DNA from: an uncultured Acetobacterium sp.
Lineage (GTDB): Bacteria; Bacillota; Clostridia; Eubacteriales; Eubacteriaceae
NCBI RefSeq assembly: GCF_963664135.1
Contig: NZ_OY760905.1
Span: 2,568,736 to 2,632,735, forward strand
Direction of reading: 5' to 3'
Length of the DNA stretch: 64,000 nt
Shown here: piece by piece, positions 47,967-57,622 of the stretch
Position numbering within the stretch: the first letter of the stretch is position 1
Layout of the letters: every line of letters begins with the position of its first letter
Position numbers and translations under genes: made by a program
Notes under the pieces: model-generated
What the model was told of the DNA's origin: nothing
Databases searched by the model: none
The model's input: the letters and a program-made list of their open reading frames with translations, nothing else

Positions 47967-48400
47967 CTTTCATGAAAGGTTAGGATAGTTTAAGTGTTTG
48001 ATGATGCTTTGCTTGTTTATAATATACGCTGATAAGCTTAAATGTATCTTGAAATGATTCTTGATTAAGAAAAGTTAAAGAAATGAAAAATTGTATATCA
48101 ATAATCAAAAAGCCAGATGTAAAATCTCGGGATTTCTTTCATGTAAAATAAAACTGTTCATGTTTAAATTTATAAAAAATATCACAACTAAATACATAAA
48201 TCCTCGACAAATAAGGAAGATTATATGCTATAATAGCCTCGTATAACATTTTTCTGATTAAGCAATTTTGTTTGCGATGAATCATTTAAAAATAATCAAC
48301 GAGAATTTGTTTGACAACAGAAAAGTTAAAATGGATTGTTTAGCTGTGCCATTGGGCTCAGTTGAGTATGATTGAAAAGGAGACCGTGAGAGAGGGCACA
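47967..48400. other. 434-base spacer before the MATE-ATPase operon
   Basis: AT-rich, with no convincing frame. TATAAT occurs on the plus strand at 48229-48234 with a poor -35 region, and the surrounding TTATATGCTATAA is nearly symmetrical, so a minus-strand TATAAT overlaps it. The promoter of the operon at 48401 is probably here, but I cannot fix it. Confidence 0.4.
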
Positions 48401-50128
48401 ATGAATAATCAACATTTTGTTAATAAGGCATTTCGAGTATTTGTCATCAACAGCATCCTTTCTTCAGCCGGGGTGGTTCTGGGCACCTTTGTGGATGCCA
48501 TCATCCTGGGAAATGCATTGGGCGAAATCGGACTTTCGGTATTGGCGGTTTCAATGCCAGTGTACATGGTTTATAACTTGTTCGGCTATGCTTTTGGAGT
48601 GGGCGGATCGTTAAAAATATCAGAGTGCATTGGTGCTGAAGATAAAGACGGTGCCAATGCCCATTTTACCCGGACGATGTTTTTTACGTCGGTAATCGGT
48701 GTGCTGATTGCAGTTTTTGGAATGATGCTTCTCCCAGAAATCATCAATCTTACCGGAGGTTCTGGGATTGATGCCGCCATTGATTATCTGTGGCCGATTG
48801 TTTTGACAGCACCGATATTTATTCTGGCGCCGGTCATGTCACTGGTCATTCGCAGTGATGCTGATCCATTCTTGTCAACTTTGGGTATTAGTGTTTCGGT
48901 AGTAGTCAACTTGGTCTTAGATCTGGTGCTCATTTTCGGATTGAATATGGGCGTCTTTGGAGCAGCGCTGGCAATGGCAATTGGCCAGCTTTCAGCCGTT
49001 GTAGTATATGCCAGTCACTTTTTTAAAAAAAATAATCATCTCAAGTTACGCCGAGTTTCCCTGAATCCAAAAGAAGGTTTTCGCCTTTTTCACGGTGGTT
49101 TTGGAATCGCATCCGCTTTTATCTATCAAGGAATTGCCCTAGTTGTCATCAATAATCTGTTAAGTGTGACAGTGGGGTTAGGGGGACTGGCAGTCTATAA
49201 TATCCTTTTTAATGTTTCCTTATTTGCTTATGCAATATTTGATGGAATTTCCCTGGCATTGGCCCCACTGGTGGCAACTTTCGCGGGTGAAAAGGATACC
49301 GAAGGCGTGTATGATACCATGCGTTTATCATTGAAGACGGCCTTGTTACTCAGTGTTTTGTGTGCAGCGATGCTGCTTATCTTCGCCGGACCGATTGCCT
49401 CAATGTTTGGAGTGACTGAAAATTTGGCGCTAGTGGAGCAGACAATCCGGATTTTTGCCTTCGGGGTTGTGCAGACCTGCTTTAACTGCGTGATGGCCCA
49501 TTTCTATCAGACAACCAAACGGCCAACTCTGGCAGGAGTTATTTATTTTATGCGGGGTTTTTTGCTGCTGATTGCATTTTCCGCATGGTTTATCTCAGGA
49601 TTTGGCGTTTTAGGCACGGCCATGGCCATTGTCGCGGCAGAAACCATCACCATGATGTTGTTACTGTTTGCCGCGGTTATTCTCAAAAATCAGGGAGGAT
49701 ATCGAAATATTTTACTGTTTCGGGAACCGATCATCGCTAAAGATAATTTATATGAAACCACCCTTTCTTCTGATATTAAAGAATTGACAACCTGTGTTGA
49801 AGAAATCGAAGCCTTTTGTGAACGGTTGGAGATTGGTCAAAAGAATGCTTACTTCATTAATTTGACTATTGAAGAATTGGCAGCCAATATAATTACTTTC
49901 GGATTTAATGATGGTAAATCCCATTATATTAATATAAAAATTGCCCTTTTTGAAGAGGACATCTATATTCGGATCAGGGACGACAGCACCAGCTACAACC
50001 CTTTTGAAGAATCTGAAAAACCCGATGAAGCTCTGGACTATCTAGGCGTTTCCATTGTTCGCAAGAAAGCAAAATCGTTTGCCTATAATCGAACGCTTGT
50101 ATTTAATAATCTTCTTATAATTTTGTAG
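48401..50128 (+). CDS. MATE transporter fused to an RsbW-like histidine-kinase-type ATPase domain
   Basis: A 575-residue fusion. Residues 1-445 are a full MATE transporter (about 12 helices; N-terminal INSILSSAGVVLGTFVDAII). Residues about 455-575 are a HATPase_c_2 (RsbW/SpoIIAB-type) domain: the N box E-E-L-A-A-N, the G1-like region IRDDSTSYNPFEE and the G2-like DYLGVSIVRKKA. ATG 48401 is chosen (AGAGGG before it). It is the first gene of a unit with an RsbU-type phosphatase (50144), two GNATs and a free RsbW-like kinase. A cytoplasmic RsbW-like domain on a transporter suggests that transport or substrate occupancy is coupled to partner-switching phosphorylation. Inference; the fusion itself is read directly. 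Confidence 0.85.
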   Translation: MNNQHFVNKAFRVFVINSILSSAGVVLGTFVDAIILGNALGEIGLSVLAVSMPVYMVYNLFGYAFGVGGSLKISECIGAEDKDGANAHFTRTMFFTSVIGVLIAVFGMMLLPEIINLTGGSGIDAAIDYLWPIVLTAPIFILAPVMSLVIRSDADPFLSTLGISVSVVVNLVLDLVLIFGLNMGVFGAALAMAIGQLSAVVVYASHFFKKNNHLKLRRVSLNPKEGFRLFHGGFGIASAFIYQGIALVVINNLLSVTVGLGGLAVYNILFNVSLFAYAIFDGISLALAPLVATFAGEKDTEGVYDTMRLSLKTALLLSVLCAAMLLIFAGPIASMFGVTENLALVEQTIRIFAFGVVQTCFNCVMAHFYQTTKRPTLAGVIYFMRGFLLLIAFSAWFISGFGVLGTAMAIVAAETITMMLLLFAAVILKNQGGYRNILLFREPIIAKDNLYETTLSSDIKELTTCVEEIEAFCERLEIGQKNAYFINLTIEELAANIITFGFNDGKSHYINIKIALFEEDIYIRIRDDSTSYNPFEESEKPDEALDYLGVSIVRKKAKSFAYNRTLVFNNLLIIL

Positions 50129-50143
50129 AACAAGGTGGCATTT

Positions 50144-51766
50144 ATGAAAGAACCAAAAAGTATCCGAAGAATAAGTCTTAAAACCAAGTTTGCATCAGCA
50201 AGTATGATTCTGGCAATTTTACTTTGTGTGATTATCGTTCTGATCTCCTACTTCAGTTACCGTGATTCCATGTTCCAACGGTATGAAGATAATATTTCAT
50301 CACTGGTACATACGGCATCTGCGATCGTACCGGTGGATAAAGTGAACAATTATTTTGAAACCCAGGAAAAAGATGCGGATTATGATCTGCTGATCAAGCA
50401 GTTTCAAAACATTCAGAAACAAAACCATCTTGAATACCTGTATGCTTATGTTCCTACGGCAAACGGCTTTAAAGTGTTTGGACAGGGAACCCAACCTGGG
50501 GATGAGGGTCACTTTGTTCTGGGTGATTTTTTAGGCACTGACTATTATCCTCAGGAAGATATCAATGCCGCCAACAGACTCTTAACTAATCCCGACGCTC
50601 CTAAAGTCGTGATTACAAAAAATAGCGATTTTGGTTATCTGATTTCCGCTTTTGACGTATTAAAAGATTCGGCGGGGAATCCGGTATTAATCGTTGGGGC
50701 GGATATGTCCATGAAAACTATCAATGATACGCTTAATAGGTATATTATGCTGGTATCAGCGATTGCACTGCTGATCTTTGGATTATTTATCACTGTTTAT
50801 CTGCTCTTCTTGAATAAATCAATTATCAATCCGCTTCAGGTTATTGTGGATAACGCTACCGATTTTGTAAACATCAATATGGATGATAATTTAGGTGAGA
50901 TTGTCGCCTTGAATATTGATGTTAAAACGGGTGATGAAATCGAAATTCTGGCCGAGGCCTTTAATAAAATGACCAGCGATATCAGTCGCTATATTAAAGA
51001 ACTTACCAGTGTCACCTCGGAGCGAGAGCGGATTGAAACCGAGCTTCGGATTGCCACCCTGATTCAGGAAGGGATGTTGCCAAAGAATTTTGACTATCCT
51101 GATCGAAACGAATTTACCCTTTATGCTTCCATGCGAGCTGCTAAAAATGTCGGGGGCGACTTTTATGATTTCTTCTTTGTGGATGATGACCATTTTTGTA
51201 TTACCATCGGGGATGTTTCCGGCAAAGGGGTTCCCGCGGCTTTATTTATGGCCATGACCAAAGCGACGGTAAAAGATCTGGTTCTCCGACGATTGCCGGT
51301 CGACGAGGTTATGACCGAAGCGAATATCAGTTTGTGTAAAAACAATGAACAGAGTATGTTTGTCACCTTGCTGATTGCGATTATCAATGTGAAGACCGGC
51401 GTCTTCCAATGGTGTGATGCTGGACATGATCCGGCGATTATCTGGAAAAAGGATGGTACCGTTGAGATGCTCACCGGCAAAAAAGGCTTTGTCTGTGCCG
51501 GGATGGAAACCGCTAAATATAAAATGAATGAATCGCAAATCGAAAAAGGCGATATTATCTATCTTTATACCGATGGGATTCCTGAGGCCAATAATACCAC
51601 CAGTGAGTTTTATGGACTGGATCGGTTGACGGCATTGGTCGCTTCAAAAGAAAAGCACGATATTAAATCCCTTTGTGCCGATATCTTAGCAGATGTTGAT
51701 CGATTTGCCGATAAAGAACCTCAGTTTGATGACATCACCATGCTCGGTTTTAAACTTGAGGAGTAG
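50144..51766 (+). CDS. membrane sensor SpoIIE/RsbU-type PP2C phosphatase
   Basis: A 540-residue membrane phosphatase. TM1 is at about residues 20-40, an extracytoplasmic sensor with Cache-like features spans 42-195, TM2 is at about 198-222, followed by a HAMP-like linker and a short coiled coil (SERERIETELRIATLIQEGM). The PP2C SpoIIE domain (about 310-540) keeps the metal motifs VGGDFYDF, IGDVSGKGVPAALFMA, AGHDP, YTDGIPEA and D-D-I-T. ATG 50144 lies five bases after AAGGTGG. It would dephosphorylate a Ser/Thr-phosphorylated antagonist controlled by the RsbW-like proteins of the same operon. Confidence 0.9.
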   Translation: MKEPKSIRRISLKTKFASASMILAILLCVIIVLISYFSYRDSMFQRYEDNISSLVHTASAIVPVDKVNNYFETQEKDADYDLLIKQFQNIQKQNHLEYLYAYVPTANGFKVFGQGTQPGDEGHFVLGDFLGTDYYPQEDINAANRLLTNPDAPKVVITKNSDFGYLISAFDVLKDSAGNPVLIVGADMSMKTINDTLNRYIMLVSAIALLIFGLFITVYLLFLNKSIINPLQVIVDNATDFVNINMDDNLGEIVALNIDVKTGDEIEILAEAFNKMTSDISRYIKELTSVTSERERIETELRIATLIQEGMLPKNFDYPDRNEFTLYASMRAAKNVGGDFYDFFFVDDDHFCITIGDVSGKGVPAALFMAMTKATVKDLVLRRLPVDEVMTEANISLCKNNEQSMFVTLLIAIINVKTGVFQWCDAGHDPAIIWKKDGTVEMLTGKKGFVCAGMETAKYKMNESQIEKGDIIYLYTDGIPEANNTTSEFYGLDRLTALVASKEKHDIKSLCADILADVDRFADKEPQFDDITMLGFKLEE

Positions 51767-51770
51767 GGAA

Positions 51771-52325
51771 ATGGAGATTATATTAAAAAACGGCAGGGAT
51801 TTATCGCTAGCAGATTTTGATGCTGTTCTTGCTCTCGATTGTAAGATTTTCGGAGATTCAATTTTAATAAATGAAGGGATGGCCGAAAAACGGTTTTTGA
51901 AGTTCAAAGACGGCGTTATTGCTGCCTACACAGGGAATACTCTGATGGGCTTTATCAGTTTTTTTAGTGTTGACGCTTCAGTTTATGAGCGGGCCGTATT
52001 TAAACAGGAATACATTGACGATAATCTGAATGAAAGTGAAGTGGTGCCACTGGAAAAAGGAAAGGCAAACACGATCCTGATATTAGATTTGGCTGTTGAT
52101 GAAGCTTTCCGCCATCTGGGCGTTTCAAAACGGTTGCATGAGTCACTCTGGAATTATCTCAGGCAAAAACATAATCAAGACTATCTGATTGAGCACGTAT
52201 TTTGTTTTGCCATCACAACTGAAGGATTCAATAGTATGTTATTTCTTGGTGGTAGAGAGCGCTGGACAAGAGATGATATGACCCTTTTTGAACTTGATAA
52301 AGAAGTATTTTTGAGGCAGGTATGA
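51771..52325 (+). CDS. GNAT family acetyltransferase
   Basis: A 184-residue GNAT-fold protein. The acetyl-CoA region is ILDLAVDEAFRHLGVSKRLH (with R-H-L-G-V in place of R-x-x-G-x-G/A), so the pyrophosphate loop is slightly unusual. It starts four bases after the phosphatase stop and overlaps the next GNAT by four bases (ATGA), so translation is coupled. Substrate unknown; regulatory protein acetylation is one possibility given the context. Confidence 0.7.
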   Translation: MEIILKNGRDLSLADFDAVLALDCKIFGDSILINEGMAEKRFLKFKDGVIAAYTGNTLMGFISFFSVDASVYERAVFKQEYIDDNLNESEVVPLEKGKANTILILDLAVDEAFRHLGVSKRLHESLWNYLRQKHNQDYLIEHVFCFAITTEGFNSMLFLGGRERWTRDDMTLFELDKEVFLRQV

Positions 52326-52918
52326 TAACAATATGGGACCGAAAACTAGACAAAAATAACCTGAAAGCGGCGGCCGATGTTTTGTGCCAAGCCTTCAAAA
52401 ACGATCCATTATACAATATCGTTTTTCAGAATAGCAAGGATCTTTGCCGGTATATCAAACTGATGGTGGACTACTATAATCGCAATGGCGAAATTCATGT
52501 CGCTGTTTCAGAAGACCAAATCGTCGGAGCATCTATTTGGAATCACAAAGGAACACCATTTTTCAGCATGCGCAGTGTGCTGACAAGTGGTATGTTTGGC
52601 GAAATACTCAAATTTTCAATGCTGATTCAGATTAAAAGCATGATTAAGCTTAAGAATGAAACGCTGATAACTGAGCGCTATCATTATAATAAGGAGCATC
52701 ATTATATCTTTATGCTTGGCTCCGTGGCTAAAGGCGCGGGTCGGGCGTTGATGGAATATGATATAAAAAAGTTCAGTGACTGCCCCATTTATCTTGAAAA
52801 CAGCAATATAAAAGATAACCAGAACTTTTATGAGAAGCTCGGATTTCATTCGATCAAAACGATTGATGTGATGGGAGTTTCGGTGGATTTGTTGACAAAT
52901 AGTAAAGGAGACCAGTGA
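52322..52918 (+). CDS. GNAT family acetyltransferase
   Basis: A 198-residue GNAT-like protein; N-terminal A-D-V-L-C-Q-A-F-K-N-D-P, then a VGASIWN strand, the LGSVAKGAGRALME loop (atypical CoA loop G-A-G-R-A) and C-terminal ENSNIKDNQNFYEKLGFHSI, the usual end of the fold. ATG overlaps the previous stop. It is not closely similar to the GNAT upstream. It precedes the RsbW-like gene by one base. Confidence 0.75.
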   Translation: MITIWDRKLDKNNLKAAADVLCQAFKNDPLYNIVFQNSKDLCRYIKLMVDYYNRNGEIHVAVSEDQIVGASIWNHKGTPFFSMRSVLTSGMFGEILKFSMLIQIKSMIKLKNETLITERYHYNKEHHYIFMLGSVAKGAGRALMEYDIKKFSDCPIYLENSNIKDNQNFYEKLGFHSIKTIDVMGVSVDLLTNSKGDQ

Positions 52919-52919
52919 T

Positions 52920-53330
52920 ATGAAAAAATTAACCGTTAATGCATCTACGGATAATCTGTCCAGGGTACTTGAATTTATCGATGCCGAATTGGAGGCAGTC
53001 GGAGCCAGCATGAAAATGATCTTTCAGATTGATCTTGCGGTGGAGGAATTATATGTAAACATTGCTCACTACGCCTATACTCCTGAAGATGGCAATGTTA
53101 TCATCAAATTTGATTCTTATGGTGATCCGCCACTGGTGGAAATTCAGTTTATCGACCAGGGAAATCCCTTTAATCCATTGGAAAATGCAGAACCGGATAT
53201 AACGCTGACAGCGGAAGAACGACAGATCGGCGGTTTGGGTGTTTTAATGGTTAAAAAGACCATGGATGAGGTGAACTATCGTTTCGAAAAGAATGAAAAT
53301 ATTCTAACAATCAAAAAATCCTTATCCTAA
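52920..53330 (+). CDS. RsbW/SpoIIAB-like serine kinase (HATPase_c_2)
   Basis: A 136-residue stand-alone ATPase of the anti-sigma-factor kinase type. It has DLAVEELYVNIAHYAY (N box E43, N47), IQFIDQGNPFNPLE (G1) and QIGGLGVLMVKKTMDEV (G2), all intact. Kinases of this family phosphorylate a STAS-domain antagonist and may bind a sigma factor; neither partner is encoded nearby. AAGGAG overlaps the upstream stop. A terminator overlaps its 3' end. Confidence 0.88.
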   Translation: MKKLTVNASTDNLSRVLEFIDAELEAVGASMKMIFQIDLAVEELYVNIAHYAYTPEDGNVIIKFDSYGDPPLVEIQFIDQGNPFNPLENAEPDITLTAEERQIGGLGVLMVKKTMDEVNYRFEKNENILTIKKSLS

Positions 53331-53350
53331 CTGGAATAAGGATTTTTTTT
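53313..53350 (+). terminator. intrinsic terminator overlapping the rsbW-like gene end
   Basis: The stem ATCCTTAT (53318-53325) / ATAAGGAT (53336-53343), extendable by A-T pairs, is followed by T. The left arm lies in the last codons of the gene. It separates the MATE/phosphatase unit from the ABC unit. Confidence 0.8.
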
Positions 53351-53482
53351 CAAACCTTCAATATAAGACAAAGCGGAGTATGATTGATCGTTTTATTAAG
53401 ATGAGCCAGAAATGGGCCCAGCTTTTTTAATAGATTATTAACCAGGAAGCAAAGTGATCAGGATTATGAATGGAGGATATTA

Positions 53483-54271
53483 ATGAAAAGAGTTTTTGTA
53501 AGCTTATGCCTACTTATTACCTTATTTCTTGCGGGGTGTAGCCAGACGGCAGCCACCCTTCCCCCAGTTGAAATGGCCAAAATCGGAACGATGATCGGGA
53601 CAGTCAGTGAGATCATTGCTCCGAGTAAGTACCCCGATGCCAAAATCAGCCGTTTCAATAATTATGTGGATGAGTCGGCGGCACTGATGGCGGGAAAAAT
53701 TGACTATGCCATTATGGATTACGCATCGGCAAAAAACTACACCAAAAATAATGATAAGGTGGTTATTTTACCGGACCCTCTTACGGATGAGGTGACGGCG
53801 ATGGCTCTGAATAAAGAGAATACCGAGTTGAATCAGAAAATCAATGCGGTTCTGAATCGCTTTTTAAGTGACGGCACCATGGACGAAATTATTACCCGTT
53901 GGTTTCCGGAAACCGGCGGGGACTATCAGATCGTTAATGTCCCCCAAAATGACAGTGGGCCAGTACTGAATGTTGCGGTGACATCGCTGACCGAGCCCCG
54001 TTGTTTTGTTAAAGACGGTGAGCTCACCGGCATGAACGTGGAACTGATGGACCGAATCGCCGCTGAGCTGGGAATGCGAACCGAATATCAAGATATGGAT
54101 TTTTCCGCGATGATTGACAGCCTGCAGTCCGGGAAGAGTGATGTCATCGCAGCCATGTATAATACCCCCGAACGCGCTCAGCGGGTGGATTTTACGAAAG
54201 GTTATTTTCCCAATCCCCAGGTGTTTGTGGTCAGAAAAGACCGCGTAGAGGAGGCCGACAATGTCAACTAA
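53483..54271 (+). CDS. lipoprotein with half solute-binding (SBP_bac_3) domains in reversed order
   Basis: A 262-residue lipoprotein (lipobox L-A-G-C, Cys near 19). Residues about 35-140 match the second half of an amino-acid-type SBP (KIGTMIGTVSEI, D-A-K-I-S-R-F, L-M-A-G-K-I-D-Y-A-I-M-D, then the final helix DGTMDEIITRWF). Residues about 155-262 match the first half (LNVAVTSLTEPRCFVKDGEL, TGMNVELMDRIAAELGM, DFSAMIDSLQSGKSDVIAAM, T-P-E-R-A-Q-R-V-D-F). So the usual order is inverted. It overlaps the next gene by 11 bases, whose first domain is a second half. GGAGG precedes the ATG. Confidence 0.8.
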   Translation: MKRVFVSLCLLITLFLAGCSQTAATLPPVEMAKIGTMIGTVSEIIAPSKYPDAKISRFNNYVDESAALMAGKIDYAIMDYASAKNYTKNNDKVVILPDPLTDEVTAMALNKENTELNQKINAVLNRFLSDGTMDEIITRWFPETGGDYQIVNVPQNDSGPVLNVAVTSLTEPRCFVKDGELTGMNVELMDRIAAELGMRTEYQDMDFSAMIDSLQSGKSDVIAAMYNTPERAQRVDFTKGYFPNPQVFVVRKDRVEEADNVN

Positions 54272-56546
54272 GAAGCGAATTCTGGCCCTGCTATTAGGTA
54301 TTAGCATGATGCTAATGATTTGCGGCTGTTCGGCCGCAGATGAAGCGAAAATCAGCAGTACCAGTGACTTGAATCAGGCCGGCTATATCATCGGCGTCCC
54401 TGAAGGAACACCGCCGGAAGAAGTGGCGAAAGAGTACACGCCCAATGCCGAAATTTCTTATTTTACCCAGTTTATCGATGGGGTGGCGGCGCTTAAAAGC
54501 GGTAAGGCCACCGCCGTCATTTATGACAGCTCCGGAGTTGACCGCATTCTGCTCAGCAATCCCGATCTGGTCAAGCTGCCCGAGGAACTGGGTAATATTG
54601 AAATCGCCACGGTGGTGGGGTTGAATAATACGGCACTCAATGATCAGGTCAATGCTTTTATCAAACAGATTCATGAAGATGGCACTGCCGATCAAATGGT
54701 TACCCGCTGGATTGATAATATCGGCGGGGTGATGCCAGATATTCCCAAACCACAGAACCCGGAAAAGAAGCTGACGATCATTACCAATGGCATGACGGAA
54801 CCGATGAATTACTACGAAAACGGTGAGCTCACTGGATACGATATCGAGTTTATCAAACGTTTTGCCAATTATGCTAATATTGATTATGAAATTATTACCA
54901 TGGATTATGCGGCCATGATCCCGGCGCTCCAAAGCGGTAAAGGCGATATTATCATCTCCGACTTCTTTAAAACTGATGAGCGGGGACAGGAAGTCCTTTA
55001 TAGTGACGCCTATGTGGTACTGCATAACAGTGTGCTGGTGCGAAAAACGATGTATGCGGGCAATACCGAAGCTGCCACCATCAAGACCAACGATGATCTC
55101 AATGGGAAACGGGTGGGCTTCATTACCGGGATGGTTCACATTGAAGGATTTCGCCCCAATTACAAGGCGGAGGAATATGAATTCAAAGATTTTTCATCGA
55201 TAATGGAAGCATTAAAATCAGGTCGGGTTGATGCGATGCTGACCAGCCAGTCCAAGGTTCAGGAAATTCTCGATAATAACCCGGATCTGGCGGCGCTACC
55301 GCCTTACTATGAGTTTTTTTCATCCGTCGGTGTCAGCAAGGCGAATACCGCACTGGGCGATAAGCTTGATCCGGTCATTAAACGAATGGTTGATGATGGA
55401 TCGTTTACGGCCCTGGAAGCCAAATGGTTTGGCGCAGATGAAGCGGCAAAGGTGCTTACCCCGGTTAATTTGAGTGGCGGCAACGGAACCCTTGCTGTCG
55501 GGGTACTGGGCGATGATTATCCTTTTTCTTATTATAAAGACAATGAACTGGTCGGACTGGAAGTCGATCTGGCCCGAATTCTAGCCTCGGAATTGGGGAT
55601 GGATTTGAAAGTAGACGTCATGGATTTTTCAGCGGTTATTCCGGCCGTGGCATCCGGGAAGATTGATTTGGCTTTTTCCCTGGCCTATACACCGGAACGG
55701 GCCGAGTCGATTCGATTTCTGACACCGATGACCTCGGATAGCTCCGCGGCAATTATCAAAAATCAGGCCTATTCGCAAAATACGGTCAGTAGCGGCAATG
55801 CGATAACTGCTTTTTTCGGATCGATTCAAGAGAGCTACAACAAGACCTTTATTGTTGAGGATCGCTATAAGCTGGTGTTAGAAGGGCTGTGGACAACCAT
55901 TGTCATTTCAATGTTGTCACTGTTATTCGGCAGTATCCTGGGGGCTGTGATCTGTGCTATGCGGAAGTCCCGATCAAAGCTGCTGTCAGGGATTGCCATT
56001 GTTTATATCCGGTTGATTCAGGGGGTTCCGATTGTTTTAACCCTGATGATCCTGTACTATATTTTATTTGCCTCAGTGGATATTGACCCGATCCTGATTG
56101 CCGTGGTAGGCTTTTCGATTAACTTTGCCGCCTATTCGGCAGAGATCTTCAGAACCGCCATTGATGCCACCGACAAAGGCCAGTTGGAAGCGGCTTATGC
56201 CCTGGGATTCACCAAGGTGTCCAGCTTTTTTAAGGTCACATTGCCCCAGGCCTTGCGACACATCTTGCCGATTTTCAAGGGCGAATTTATCAGCATGGTA
56301 AAAATGACCTCGGTGGTGGGTTATATTGCGATTCAGGATTTGACCAAGATGACAGATATCATTCGAAGCCGAACCTTTGATGCATTTTTCCCGCTGTTTG
56401 TGACCGCCTTTATCTATTTTGTGATCACCTACCTGTTTATTATCGTACTGGGAAAAATTGAAGTACGGGTCGATCCCAAACGTCGCAAACGAGTGGTCAA
56501 AGGGATTGTGGATCCAGAAGTGAGAGATGCGGAGGTGGTGAAATGA
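54261..56546 (+). CDS. lipoprotein-type SBP half-domains fused to an amino-acid ABC permease
   Basis: A 761-residue protein with a signal sequence ending M-I-C-G-C. Order of SBP parts: second half (about 38-150), first half (165-265), second half (275-390), first half (400-500), then an amino-acid-type permease (about 530-745; RLIQGVPIVLTLMILYYILF, EIFRTAIDATDKGQLEAAYALGF as the EAA-like loop). Because the preceding lipoprotein ends in a first half, the first domain here completes it across the gene border. SBP-permease fusions are known (GlnP type); the half-domain phase shift is unusual. Gene ends overlap the ATPase gene by four bases. Confidence 0.85.
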   Translation: MSTKKRILALLLGISMMLMICGCSAADEAKISSTSDLNQAGYIIGVPEGTPPEEVAKEYTPNAEISYFTQFIDGVAALKSGKATAVIYDSSGVDRILLSNPDLVKLPEELGNIEIATVVGLNNTALNDQVNAFIKQIHEDGTADQMVTRWIDNIGGVMPDIPKPQNPEKKLTIITNGMTEPMNYYENGELTGYDIEFIKRFANYANIDYEIITMDYAAMIPALQSGKGDIIISDFFKTDERGQEVLYSDAYVVLHNSVLVRKTMYAGNTEAATIKTNDDLNGKRVGFITGMVHIEGFRPNYKAEEYEFKDFSSIMEALKSGRVDAMLTSQSKVQEILDNNPDLAALPPYYEFFSSVGVSKANTALGDKLDPVIKRMVDDGSFTALEAKWFGADEAAKVLTPVNLSGGNGTLAVGVLGDDYPFSYYKDNELVGLEVDLARILASELGMDLKVDVMDFSAVIPAVASGKIDLAFSLAYTPERAESIRFLTPMTSDSSAAIIKNQAYSQNTVSSGNAITAFFGSIQESYNKTFIVEDRYKLVLEGLWTTIVISMLSLLFGSILGAVICAMRKSRSKLLSGIAIVYIRLIQGVPIVLTLMILYYILFASVDIDPILIAVVGFSINFAAYSAEIFRTAIDATDKGQLEAAYALGFTKVSSFFKVTLPQALRHILPIFKGEFISMVKMTSVVGYIAIQDLTKMTDIIRSRTFDAFFPLFVTAFIYFVITYLFIIVLGKIEVRVDPKRRKRVVKGIVDPEVRDAEVVK

Positions 56547-57622
56547 TAACAATCAATGGTTTATCCAAAAGCTTCGGCGAGTTAAGCGTGCTGGAAAATA
56601 TCAGTACCGAGATAAAAGAGGGCGAAGTGATTTCGATCATCGGGCCATCAGGTTGCGGAAAGTCAACCTTTCTGCGCTGCATTAACCTATTGGAAACACC
56701 GACTAACGGCGAGATTGTCATTGATGGCCAGAACATTCTGGCTAAAAATGCCGACGTCTCTGGACTGCGCCAGAAAATGGGGATGGTGTTTCAATCCTTC
56801 AATCTGTTTTCCCATCTGATGATTATTGAAAACCTGATGCTGGGACCGGTTAATTTGTTGAAAATCCCCAAACAGCAAGCCTATGATGAAGGGCTGCAAT
56901 ATCTGGAGATGGTCGGGCTCCGATCAAAAGCCCTGGCCTTTCCCGACGAGTTGTCCGGTGGACAAAAGCAGCGGGCAGCGATCGCCAGAACCCTGGCGAT
57001 GAAACCGGAAATCGTCTTGTTTGACGAACCCACCTCCGCCCTCGATCCCACCATGGTCAGCGAGGTGCTGGGAGTTATCCGCAAACTGGCATCAACGGGG
57101 ATGACAATGATGATTGTGACCCATGAGATGAAGTTTGCCAGGGATGTCTCCAGTCGGGTGTTCTATATGGATGAAAAGGGAATCTATGAAGATGGATCGC
57201 CGGCTGAAATTTTTGATCATCCTCAAAATGCCAAGACCCGAGCGTTCATCCGAAAAATTTCCGCATTTGAATATACCGCCGATGGCAGTGGTTTTGACCT
57301 CTATGAGCTCAATGCCAAAATTGAGGAGTTCCTCAAAAAGCAGATGTTTACCGATCGGCAGATTATGAATGTCCAATTGGTCTGCGAGGAAATTGTTTTG
57401 GCCATCCTGCTCCGGGCATTTCCCAAAGCCAGTGTATCCTTACTGGTTGAGTATTCCGATTTAAGCGGTGAGATTACCCTCCAGGTAAGCTTTGCCGGTG
57501 AAGCCTATGAGCTGGAAAAAGCCGAAGAAAATGAAATATCACTGGCCATCATTAATACCTATGCAAAATCGTTGGCCATTACAAATGAAAACGGCAGAAA
57601 CACGGTAAAAATAATCATTTAA
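56543..57622 (+). CDS. amino-acid ABC transporter ATPase fused to a degenerate RsbW-like domain
   Basis: A 359-residue fusion. Residues 1-240 are a GlnQ-type ATPase: Walker A G-P-S-G-C-G-K-S-T, Q-loop VFQSFNLF, signature LSGGQKQRAA, Walker B IVLFDEPTSALDP, then H-loop VTHEM. Residues about 255-359 have the outline of a HATPase_c_2 domain: E-E at 281-282 (VCEEIVLAILLRAF), strands (VSLLVEYSDLSGEITLQVSF) and an end like R-N-T-V-K-I-I. The N-box Asn and the G1/G2 glycine motifs are missing, so this domain probably does not bind ATP and may be a binding platform for a signalling partner. It is the last gene before a strong terminator. Confidence 0.82.
   Translation: MITINGLSKSFGELSVLENISTEIKEGEVISIIGPSGCGKSTFLRCINLLETPTNGEIVIDGQNILAKNADVSGLRQKMGMVFQSFNLFSHLMIIENLMLGPVNLLKIPKQQAYDEGLQYLEMVGLRSKALAFPDELSGGQKQRAAIARTLAMKPEIVLFDEPTSALDPTMVSEVLGVIRKLASTGMTMMIVTHEMKFARDVSSRVFYMDEKGIYEDGSPAEIFDHPQNAKTRAFIRKISAFEYTADGSGFDLYELNAKIEEFLKKQMFTDRQIMNVQLVCEEIVLAILLRAFPKASVSLLVEYSDLSGEITLQVSFAGEAYELEKAEENEISLAIINTYAKSLAITNENGRNTVKIII

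Follow-up and report, generated by a model that had tools for sequence, protein, structure and literature searches.

Partner switching is a textbook route by which bacteria free a sigma factor. The RsbU/RsbV/RsbW-SigB and SpoIIE/SpoIIAA/SpoIIAB-SigF systems combine a PP2C phosphatase, a STAS antagonist and a serine kinase of the GHKL fold. The SiaABCD system of Pseudomonas, which includes the SpoIIE-like SiaA and the SpoIIAB-like SiaB, has an output that is not a sigma factor and is, to our knowledge, without a transporter fusion. Among transporters, the ATPases MetN, MalK and OpuA carry C-terminal regulatory domains, and we know of no described case of a MATE transporter with one. In MlaFB, the STAS protein MlaB is reported to bind the ABC ATPase MlaF, with a threonine at the interface whose phosphomimetic replacement weakens binding (PMC7367683). 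Here we describe a locus in a 64,000-nucleotide stretch of DNA (the window; contig NZ_OY760905.1, G000:C1:2568736-2632735) from an uncultured Acetobacterium sp. whose genome is a single contig of 4.08 Mb. Unit 1 of this locus encodes a MATE transporter fused at its C terminus to an RsbW-like domain (MATE-H), a SpoIIE/RsbU-type phosphatase, two GNAT-like acetyltransferases and a free RsbW-like kinase. Unit 2 encodes an amino-acid-type ABC importer in which a degenerate RsbW-like domain forms the C-terminal part of the ATPase (ABC-H).

We propose that these genes form a partner-switching phosphoswitch with transporters among its targets, either in place of a sigma factor or in addition to one, in which a STAS protein would dock on the fused domains and gate transport; we put the probability of this reading at roughly 0.55. 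An earlier reading of the same DNA (the original prediction) had the transporters act as sensors with kinase domains, and the motif data below indicate that the reverse is probably true.

Results

The fused domains were compared with known RsbW-like proteins by sequence and by fold. Three such domains had been predicted in the window (one fused to the MATE transporter, one free, and one degenerate and fused to the ABC ATPase), and the HATPase_c_2 likeness of the C-terminal parts had been named beforehand as the test; it was upheld by Pfam for MATE-H (8.8e-8, 32.7 bits against a cut-off of 27.4 bits) and by fold for ABC-H. The remainder of MATE-H belongs to the MATE family (Pfam MatE, PF01554, 8.3e-27, in two stretches). 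Comparison of the MATE-H domain with free RsbW by hhalign gave a probability of 95.9% (E 5.8e-9), and a sequence search of the PDB gave weak matches to SpoIIAB (0.005, the best) and RsbW (0.013). The ABC-H tail matched HATPase_c_2 at 0.018 within the whole protein and at 0.0012 (19.3 bits) as an isolated piece, below the cut-off, and it aligned with the MATE-H domain at 7.8% (E 0.0045) in hhalign; in an ABC-H relative outside the class (L213; L and G labels are ours for loci and genomes), the match was narrowly above the cut-off (27.6 versus 27.4 bits). AlphaFold2 (AF2), run with 9 sequences, modelled residues 241-359 of ABC-H with block means of the per-residue confidence (pLDDT) of 70-88, and modelled the ABC part poorly. 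The results of the Foldseek search of this model against the PDB showed matches to SpoIIAB (1tid, E 4.6e-6), to RsbW (6m36_A, TM by target 0.79) and to SiaB, and to ABC ATPases for the remainder of the protein. By this fold match of a model, the degenerate domain of ABC-H is an RsbW fold. The AF2 models of MATE-H and of the ABC half of ABC-H were rejected as functional proof, their quality being too low.

The ATP-site motifs were then compared in an alignment of 101 RsbW-like domains. The first glycine of the GxG motif was kept in 36 of the 39 separate kinases (18/18 fused to SpoIIE, 2/2 fused to STAS-APH and 16/19 free copies) and in 2 of the 58 transporter-fused copies (2/45 for MATE-H and 0/13 for ABC-H). 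The N, the D and both GxG glycines were all present in 18/18, 2/2 and 16/19 of the separate kinases, respectively, and in 1/45 MATE-H and 0/13 ABC-H copies. The three exceptional free copies consist of two divergent or gapped sequences and L161, on a short contig, which groups with ABC-H. The ABC-H copies lack the N in 12/13 cases and the D in 13/13, and keep the second glycine in 5/13. In the window, the free RsbW has the complete set of N, D and GxG motifs (ENDGGG); the MATE-H domain retains the E and N of the N-box, the D of G1 and the second G of GxG, the first G being replaced by Y; and in the ABC-H domain the N of the N-box is A, the D of G1 is F and GxG is lost. Neither transporter-fused domain of the window has a complete kinase motif. 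In a tree of 79 domains, ABC-H formed one supported group (100/99) that includes the fragment L161, the separate kinases fell mostly in one group (90/94, under the starred level) with two divergent free rows among MATE-H, and MATE-H occurred in several lineages, the tree having few columns and many open forks.

These counts bear on the sensor proposal, in which the RsbW-like kinase of the transporter follows transport and sets the phosphorylation of an antagonist encoded elsewhere. Such a role would be consistent with the residues kept in the MATE-H domain of the window, with the retention of N, D and second glycine in 28/45 MATE-H copies (the window's included) and with the many MATE-H loci that have no other RsbW-like gene within five genes (for example L085, L086, L088 and L090, which are linked to nonribosomal peptide synthetase (NRPS) genes). 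However, the loss of the first glycine from 43/45 MATE-H and 13/13 ABC-H copies argues for the transporter as receiver and against the transporter as sensor, ABC-H has also lost N and D almost throughout, and a separate, complete RsbW is encoded in the same operon of the window; we hold the sensor role to be unlikely. We read the motif loss, which is clearest in ABC-H, as selection for STAS binding and not for kinase activity, and the SpoIIE protein, through its extracytoplasmic part, would be the more natural sensor. In one relative, a neighbouring gene encodes a protein with dCache and HAMP.

Gene neighbourhoods within a radius of five genes were compared between 35 MATE-H loci, not including the window locus and its orthologues, and 38 loci of plain MATE transporters, mostly from the same genomes and picked blind to their neighbours. 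The controls were 39 regions from 27/28 genomes, taken by hand among the matches listed (top-scoring), from which L185, where the gene caller gave no MATE, was dropped; the matches left out were a G385 match adjoining the Acetobacterium unit 1, a G374 match located some 13 kb away from a MATE-H gene and a long frame in G313, and the fusion genomes G355, G161 and G273 had no control. The MATE-H set includes L134, found by the GH3 search only, L035, from the search of the window's own genome, L106, counted despite a broken MATE frame, and L099, a partial frame of 348 amino acids. At least one partner-switching gene (STAS, SpoIIE or RsbW) was present near 17/35 MATE-H genes and 3/38 plain MATE genes (p 1.5e-4; 16/34 and p 3.2e-4 without L134). 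The difference was seen for SpoIIE (14/35 versus 1/38), a further RsbW-like gene (9/35 versus 0/38), STAS (9/35 versus 2/38), APH (5/35 versus 0/38) and NRPS (10/35 versus 2/38), while that for GH3 (2/35 versus 0/38) was not significant. Partner-switching or NRPS/GH3 genes taken together were found near 26/35 MATE-H and 5/38 plain MATE genes (p 1e-7), with at least one such locus in 16/18 genera; 9/35 MATE-H loci had neither. STAS, SpoIIE and a further RsbW were all present within five genes at 5/35 loci (L092, L096, L105, L106 and L115), and in the window the phosphatase and kinase genes stand together, with STAS genes elsewhere in the genome. The predicted wiring of transporters to partner switching is thus supported, by fusions in many genera of which about half lie beside STAS, SpoIIE or RsbW genes. 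Some MATE-H genes have neighbours that encode enzymes of amide or ester formation, namely NRPS, GH3, ATP-grasp, lysyl-phosphatidylglycerol (PG) synthase and acyltransferase. The 2405-amino-acid gene of L142 was considered as an NRPS and refuted by Pfam (Calx-beta).

Outside the class, SpoIIE was found within five genes at 7/7 MATE-H loci for which 13-20 kb was fetched, together with STAS at four of them and a free RsbW at the other three; an eighth MATE-H (L222) was read from its translation, the fetched stretch being too short for its neighbourhood. STAS or SpoIIE lay within five genes of ABC-H at 3/11 loci outside Acetobacterium (L121, L155 and L213), and in L121 the run that contains ABC-H also has STAS-APH and, at a distance of over five genes, STAS and SpoIIE plus RsbW.

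Within Acetobacterium, MATE-H, SpoIIE, GNAT1 and RsbW were found together and in the same order at 10/10 loci, and GNAT2 at 6/10. This recurrence, with that of the same architecture in 18 genera, ruled out a chance fusion or frameshift artefact. The original prediction expected both units to co-occur elsewhere, and unit 2 (solute-binding protein to ABC-H) adjoins unit 1 at 8/10 loci. The two loci where no adjoining unit 2 was observed are those of A. bakii (L032) and A. fimetarium (L033). Among the eight loci with unit 2, a separate gene for the solute-binding protein was not found in L029 and L031, and in L029 the gap between the units is just about 50 bases. The MATE-H protein is 99% identical in a metagenome-assembled genome named A. 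woodii. The ratio of nonsynonymous to synonymous substitution rates (dN/dS) against orthologues was 0.02-0.05 for the MATE-H domain and 0.03-0.09 for the MATE part, the domain being lower in 8/8 computable pairs (of 10 pairs, with dS close to saturation in many). For the ABC-H tail it was 0.04-0.11 (8/8 pairs), compared with 0.02-0.05 for the ATPase part, so that the degenerate domain is being retained, with a constraint less strict than that on the ATPase. Both fused domains thus appear from their sequences to be under purifying selection. That they are structural leftovers or stabilisers unconnected with partner switching would fit the degeneration of their ATP sites and the 18/35 MATE-H loci without partner-switching genes nearby, but it is at odds with this selection, which in every computable pair constrains the MATE-H domain more than the transporter part, with the enrichment of partner-switching genes relative to plain MATEs and with the finding of MATE-H and ABC-H in the same genomes, and it strikes us as very improbable.

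In a search of 393 class genomes with the MATE-H domain profile, up to 10 candidates were scored in each genome, and the counts are therefore lower bounds. At least 44 genomes gave matches, some of them to other proteins, and fusions were present in at least 34/393 genomes and at least 18/219 genera, a count made up of the frames long enough for a fusion, the split copy of G273 and the later-found G098. The ABC-H profile matched 11/393 genomes. MATE-H was also present in 9/11 of these (Fisher p 4.5e-9) and in 5/7 of their genera (p 4.0e-5); when G098 was not counted as MATE-H the values were 1.5e-7 and 7.7e-4, respectively, kinship being handled in part only, by counting genera. In the phylum search, 32 of 378 genomes had a match of any kind and more fusions were found outside the class, the neighbourhoods being fetched for some of these matches. 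In L155 and L156 an entire ABC importer is a single polypeptide of 996 and 1151 amino acids, respectively, with the order SBP-SBP-permease-ATPase-degenerate RsbW domain (SBP, solute-binding protein). The window's genome encodes a second MATE-H (L035 2887-6107, G000:C1 ~202886-206106), which is followed by an RsbW domain bearing an unassigned C-terminal part of about 350 amino acids; the frame L035 4683-6107 may be a HATPase-GNAT fusion by our reading, Pfam giving HATPase_c_2 alone.

Several other arrangements were observed in the collected loci. Runs with SpoIIE and MATE-H include a fusion of a STAS domain with an NRPS condensation domain (L208 3355-4947 and L219 6787-8391). STAS-APH-type kinase fusions occur in L092, L093, L096 and L121, and STAS-APH kinase-RsbW triple fusions in L092 (7139-8701), L096 (10252-11841) and L223 (238-1821, from translation only). 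In L162 9369-19613 (G372, a relative in the same family), STAS, RsbW, NRPS, phosphopantetheinyl transferase and SpoIIE stand in this order. L214 4151-5773 (- strand), roughly 4 kb away from ABC-H, encodes an SDF dicarboxylate symporter whose N-terminal domain matches the RsbW-like profile (1.9e-10) and is not reported by Pfam.

A search of the whole genome for STAS proteins (E up to 1) gave six matches, none in the window, as the original prediction had stated, and a candidate for the antagonist that it had placed elsewhere is present in this genome. Four matches were above the cut-off. Two are stressosome-like proteins (L034), a third belongs to a STAS-RsbW-sigma operon (L036), and the fourth is an orphan (L037). 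The orphan, of 100 amino acids (G000:C1:1420826-1421128), heads an operon of two GH3-family proteins and two ABC exporters, and it is found beside GH3 in 5/6 Acetobacterium genomes. G359 and G385 have two STAS matches each (E up to 0.01), one being the GH3-linked STAS and the second, judged by score and frame length, apparently corresponding to the sigma-operon STAS. The signature SSAG[LI]R was present in 43/46 STAS proteins of the collected loci, and the three without it are the stressosome-like and sigma-operon types of the window's own genome. In L113 (G140), STAS, GH3, MATE-H and SpoIIE follow each other in a single run, and in L134 (G098) the order is MATE-H, ATP-grasp, GH3 and SpoIIE. 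GH3 is rare (29/393 genomes of the class, 13 genera), and MATE-H is present in 7/13 of its genera (p 9.5e-6; 6/13 and p 1.1e-4 without G098), most fetched GH3 loci having no STAS or MATE-H nearby. Because of the STAS/GH3/MATE-H linkage, the rarity of GH3 and the overlap of genera, the leading candidate, and probably the antagonist in this genome, is the orphan of the GH3 operon, a STAS protein of the SSAGLR type. The STAS tree, which was poorly resolved (16/33 inner branches open), did not show orthology of this protein with other MATE-H-linked STAS proteins.

The operon L036, at about 1.335 Mb, which by its sequence likeness is probably of RsbV/RsbW/sigma type and not spoIIAA/AB, raises the alternative of ordinary sigma control, with unit 1 feeding this operon and the fused domains as minor additions. 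Partner-switching proteins can cross-talk, and the genome does offer such an outlet. However, the phosphosite context of the L036 STAS (YMDSTGMG) differs from the SSAGLR type of the MATE-H neighbourhoods, MATE-H adjoins its own STAS and SpoIIE genes in other genera, and the genome's three sigma factors with region 3, the only type searched genome-wide, all lie outside the window, in line with the absence of a local sigma factor that had been predicted. We regard ordinary sigma control as quite improbable.

All the genes named in the original prediction were recovered as reading frames with Pfam matches, that of GNAT2 slightly below its cut-off, and are listed below with the other features of the locus. 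The hairpin at the end of the free rsbW gene probably separates two transcription units, as predicted; it was missed by a promoter/terminator pattern scan that gave 12 terminator-like sites compared with 10.5 by shuffling. The SpoIIE-type phosphatase has a HAMP match below the threshold (Pfam, 0.0012), and its best likeness in NCBIfam is to SiaA (75 bits, cut-off 700 bits). The ATPase of ABC-H is closest to GlnQ, yet under the cut-off of that NCBIfam model. A known anti-phage defence role was considered and rejected: PADLOC, run on seven proteins, matched none but the ABC protein (8 models, of which mad3 scored best with 5e-34), and we read these matches as general ATPase likeness. Elsewhere in the genome, the free RsbW has a paralogue of 74% identity (L040 8245-8655, G000:C1 ~3730244-3730654), located 3' of two large repetitive, possibly surface, proteins, and a SpoIIE-type phosphatase frame is broken by one TGA (L041 4057-4839, G000:C1 597245-597829).

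Table 1. Features of the locus, with positions in the window
Feature	Position	Strand	Basis or detail
MATE-H (MATE transporter with C-terminal RsbW-like domain)	48401..50128	+	575 amino acids, ATG at 48401; frame 48362-50128
RsbW-like (HATPase_c_2) domain of MATE-H	49754..50119	+	Pfam, motif alignment, hhalign
SpoIIE/RsbU-type PP2C phosphatase, N-terminal membrane/sensor part	50135..51766	+	Pfam SpoIIE 1.5e-47, residues 350-540
GNAT-like acetyltransferase 1 (GNAT1)	51771..52325	+	Acetyltransf_1 6e-5, above cut-off
GNAT-like acetyltransferase 2 (GNAT2)	52322..52918	+	Acetyltransf_7 1.4e-5, 25.8 bits, slightly below 27-bit cut-off
Free RsbW-like kinase	52920..53330	+	HATPase_c_2 1.2e-20; motif ENDGGG
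Terminator-like hairpin with T run, overlapping the rsbW end	53313..53348	+	RNA fold -15.1 kcal/mol, z -5.25
Amino-acid-type solute-binding protein (SBP_bac_3)	53483..54271	+	1.4e-32
Tandem SBP_bac_3 and ABC permease fusion	54261..56546	+	SBP_bac_3 3.1e-59 (3 stretches), BPD_transp_1 3.2e-20
ABC-H (amino-acid ABC ATPase with degenerate RsbW-fold domain)	56543..57622	+	ABC_tran 2.1e-35
Degenerate RsbW-fold domain of ABC-H	57269..57619	+	Motif alignment, AF2, Foldseek

Discussion

In the phosphoswitch that we propose, an outside signal would be sensed by the membrane SpoIIE phosphatase, which would dephosphorylate an SSAGLR-type STAS antagonist, while the free RsbW would phosphorylate it. The unphosphorylated STAS would dock on the RsbW-like domain of MATE-H and open or close transport, and would dock likewise on the RsbW-fold domain appended to the ATPase of ABC-H, in unit 2, and gate import. 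The MATE transporter probably exports or flips a small product of the linked enzymes, these being the GNATs here and NRPS, GH3, ATP-grasp or lysyl-PG-synthase-like enzymes elsewhere.

Several observations weigh against this reading. The partner is inferred, the STAS search having found none in the window, and the sixth Acetobacterium genome (G159) has no STAS at its GH3 genes; it does encode a different STAS of the SSAGLR type (L220), and next to its second MATE-H lies a STAS-APH protein (L093). The residues retained in most MATE-H domains, the window's included, may still allow ATP binding or kinase activity. The ABC-H domain is weak by sequence, with its Pfam match below the cut-off and a probability of 2.8% (E 0.016) against free RsbW in hhalign, for which the query was made of Acetobacterium copies only. 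AF2 modelled MATE-H with a mean pLDDT of just 55.5 and the ABC half of ABC-H poorly, a quality too low for interfaces to be judged. No partner-switching gene lies within five genes at 18/35 MATE-H loci, no STAS or SpoIIE at 8/11 ABC-H loci outside Acetobacterium, some of them on short contigs. In L204 and L205, which come from a single genus outside the class, a sigma-like gene lies no more than five genes away from MATE-H. The neighbourhood counts also depend on profiles that we built and on a simple gene caller.

Docking of the switch on exporters and importers would mean direct gating of transport and of secondary metabolism. It would explain the presence of STAS, SpoIIE and RsbW genes in some NRPS and GH3 clusters of anaerobic Firmicutes, and MATE transporters would gain a regulatory domain. 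A broader and tentative generalisation, which we consider possible rather than probable, is a widespread post-translational layer in Bacillota in which RsbW-fold receivers are placed on transporters (MATE, amino-acid ABC and possibly SDF) and STAS domains on biosynthetic enzymes (NRPS condensation and APH). If so, one STAS switch controlled by SpoIIE and RsbW would coordinate how specialised metabolites are produced, exported and taken up, with no need for transcription. The proposal lends itself to a concrete test, since it predicts a single antagonist and two transporter targets and involves one phosphatase, and the genus includes the genetically tractable A. woodii. A search of the open-access literature, with most subscription journals and all bioRxiv preprints outside its scope, listed no paper that describes a fusion of the MATE-RsbW, ABC-RsbW or STAS-condensation kind; the parts are known, and no description of their combination was found in the literature searched.

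Comparison with the SigB and SigF systems showed the same phosphatase, antagonist and kinase folds, but here no sigma factor gene adjoins, and RsbW-like domains, mostly without the first GxG glycine, are carried by transporters. SiaABCD is close in that SiaA is the best NCBIfam likeness of the phosphatase and SiaB appears among the fold matches, although the phosphatase is far under the SiaA cut-off. As in MetN, MalK and OpuA, a regulatory domain is placed C-terminal to the ATPase of an importer, whereas the fold here is RsbW/SpoIIAB-like. MlaFB, an ABC ATPase under STAS control (PMC7367683), is a precedent for the phosphoswitch that we propose; MlaB, as described there, binds the ATPase domain itself, whereas here the predicted docking site is an appended RsbW-fold domain and the phosphatase and kinase genes of the switch are next door.

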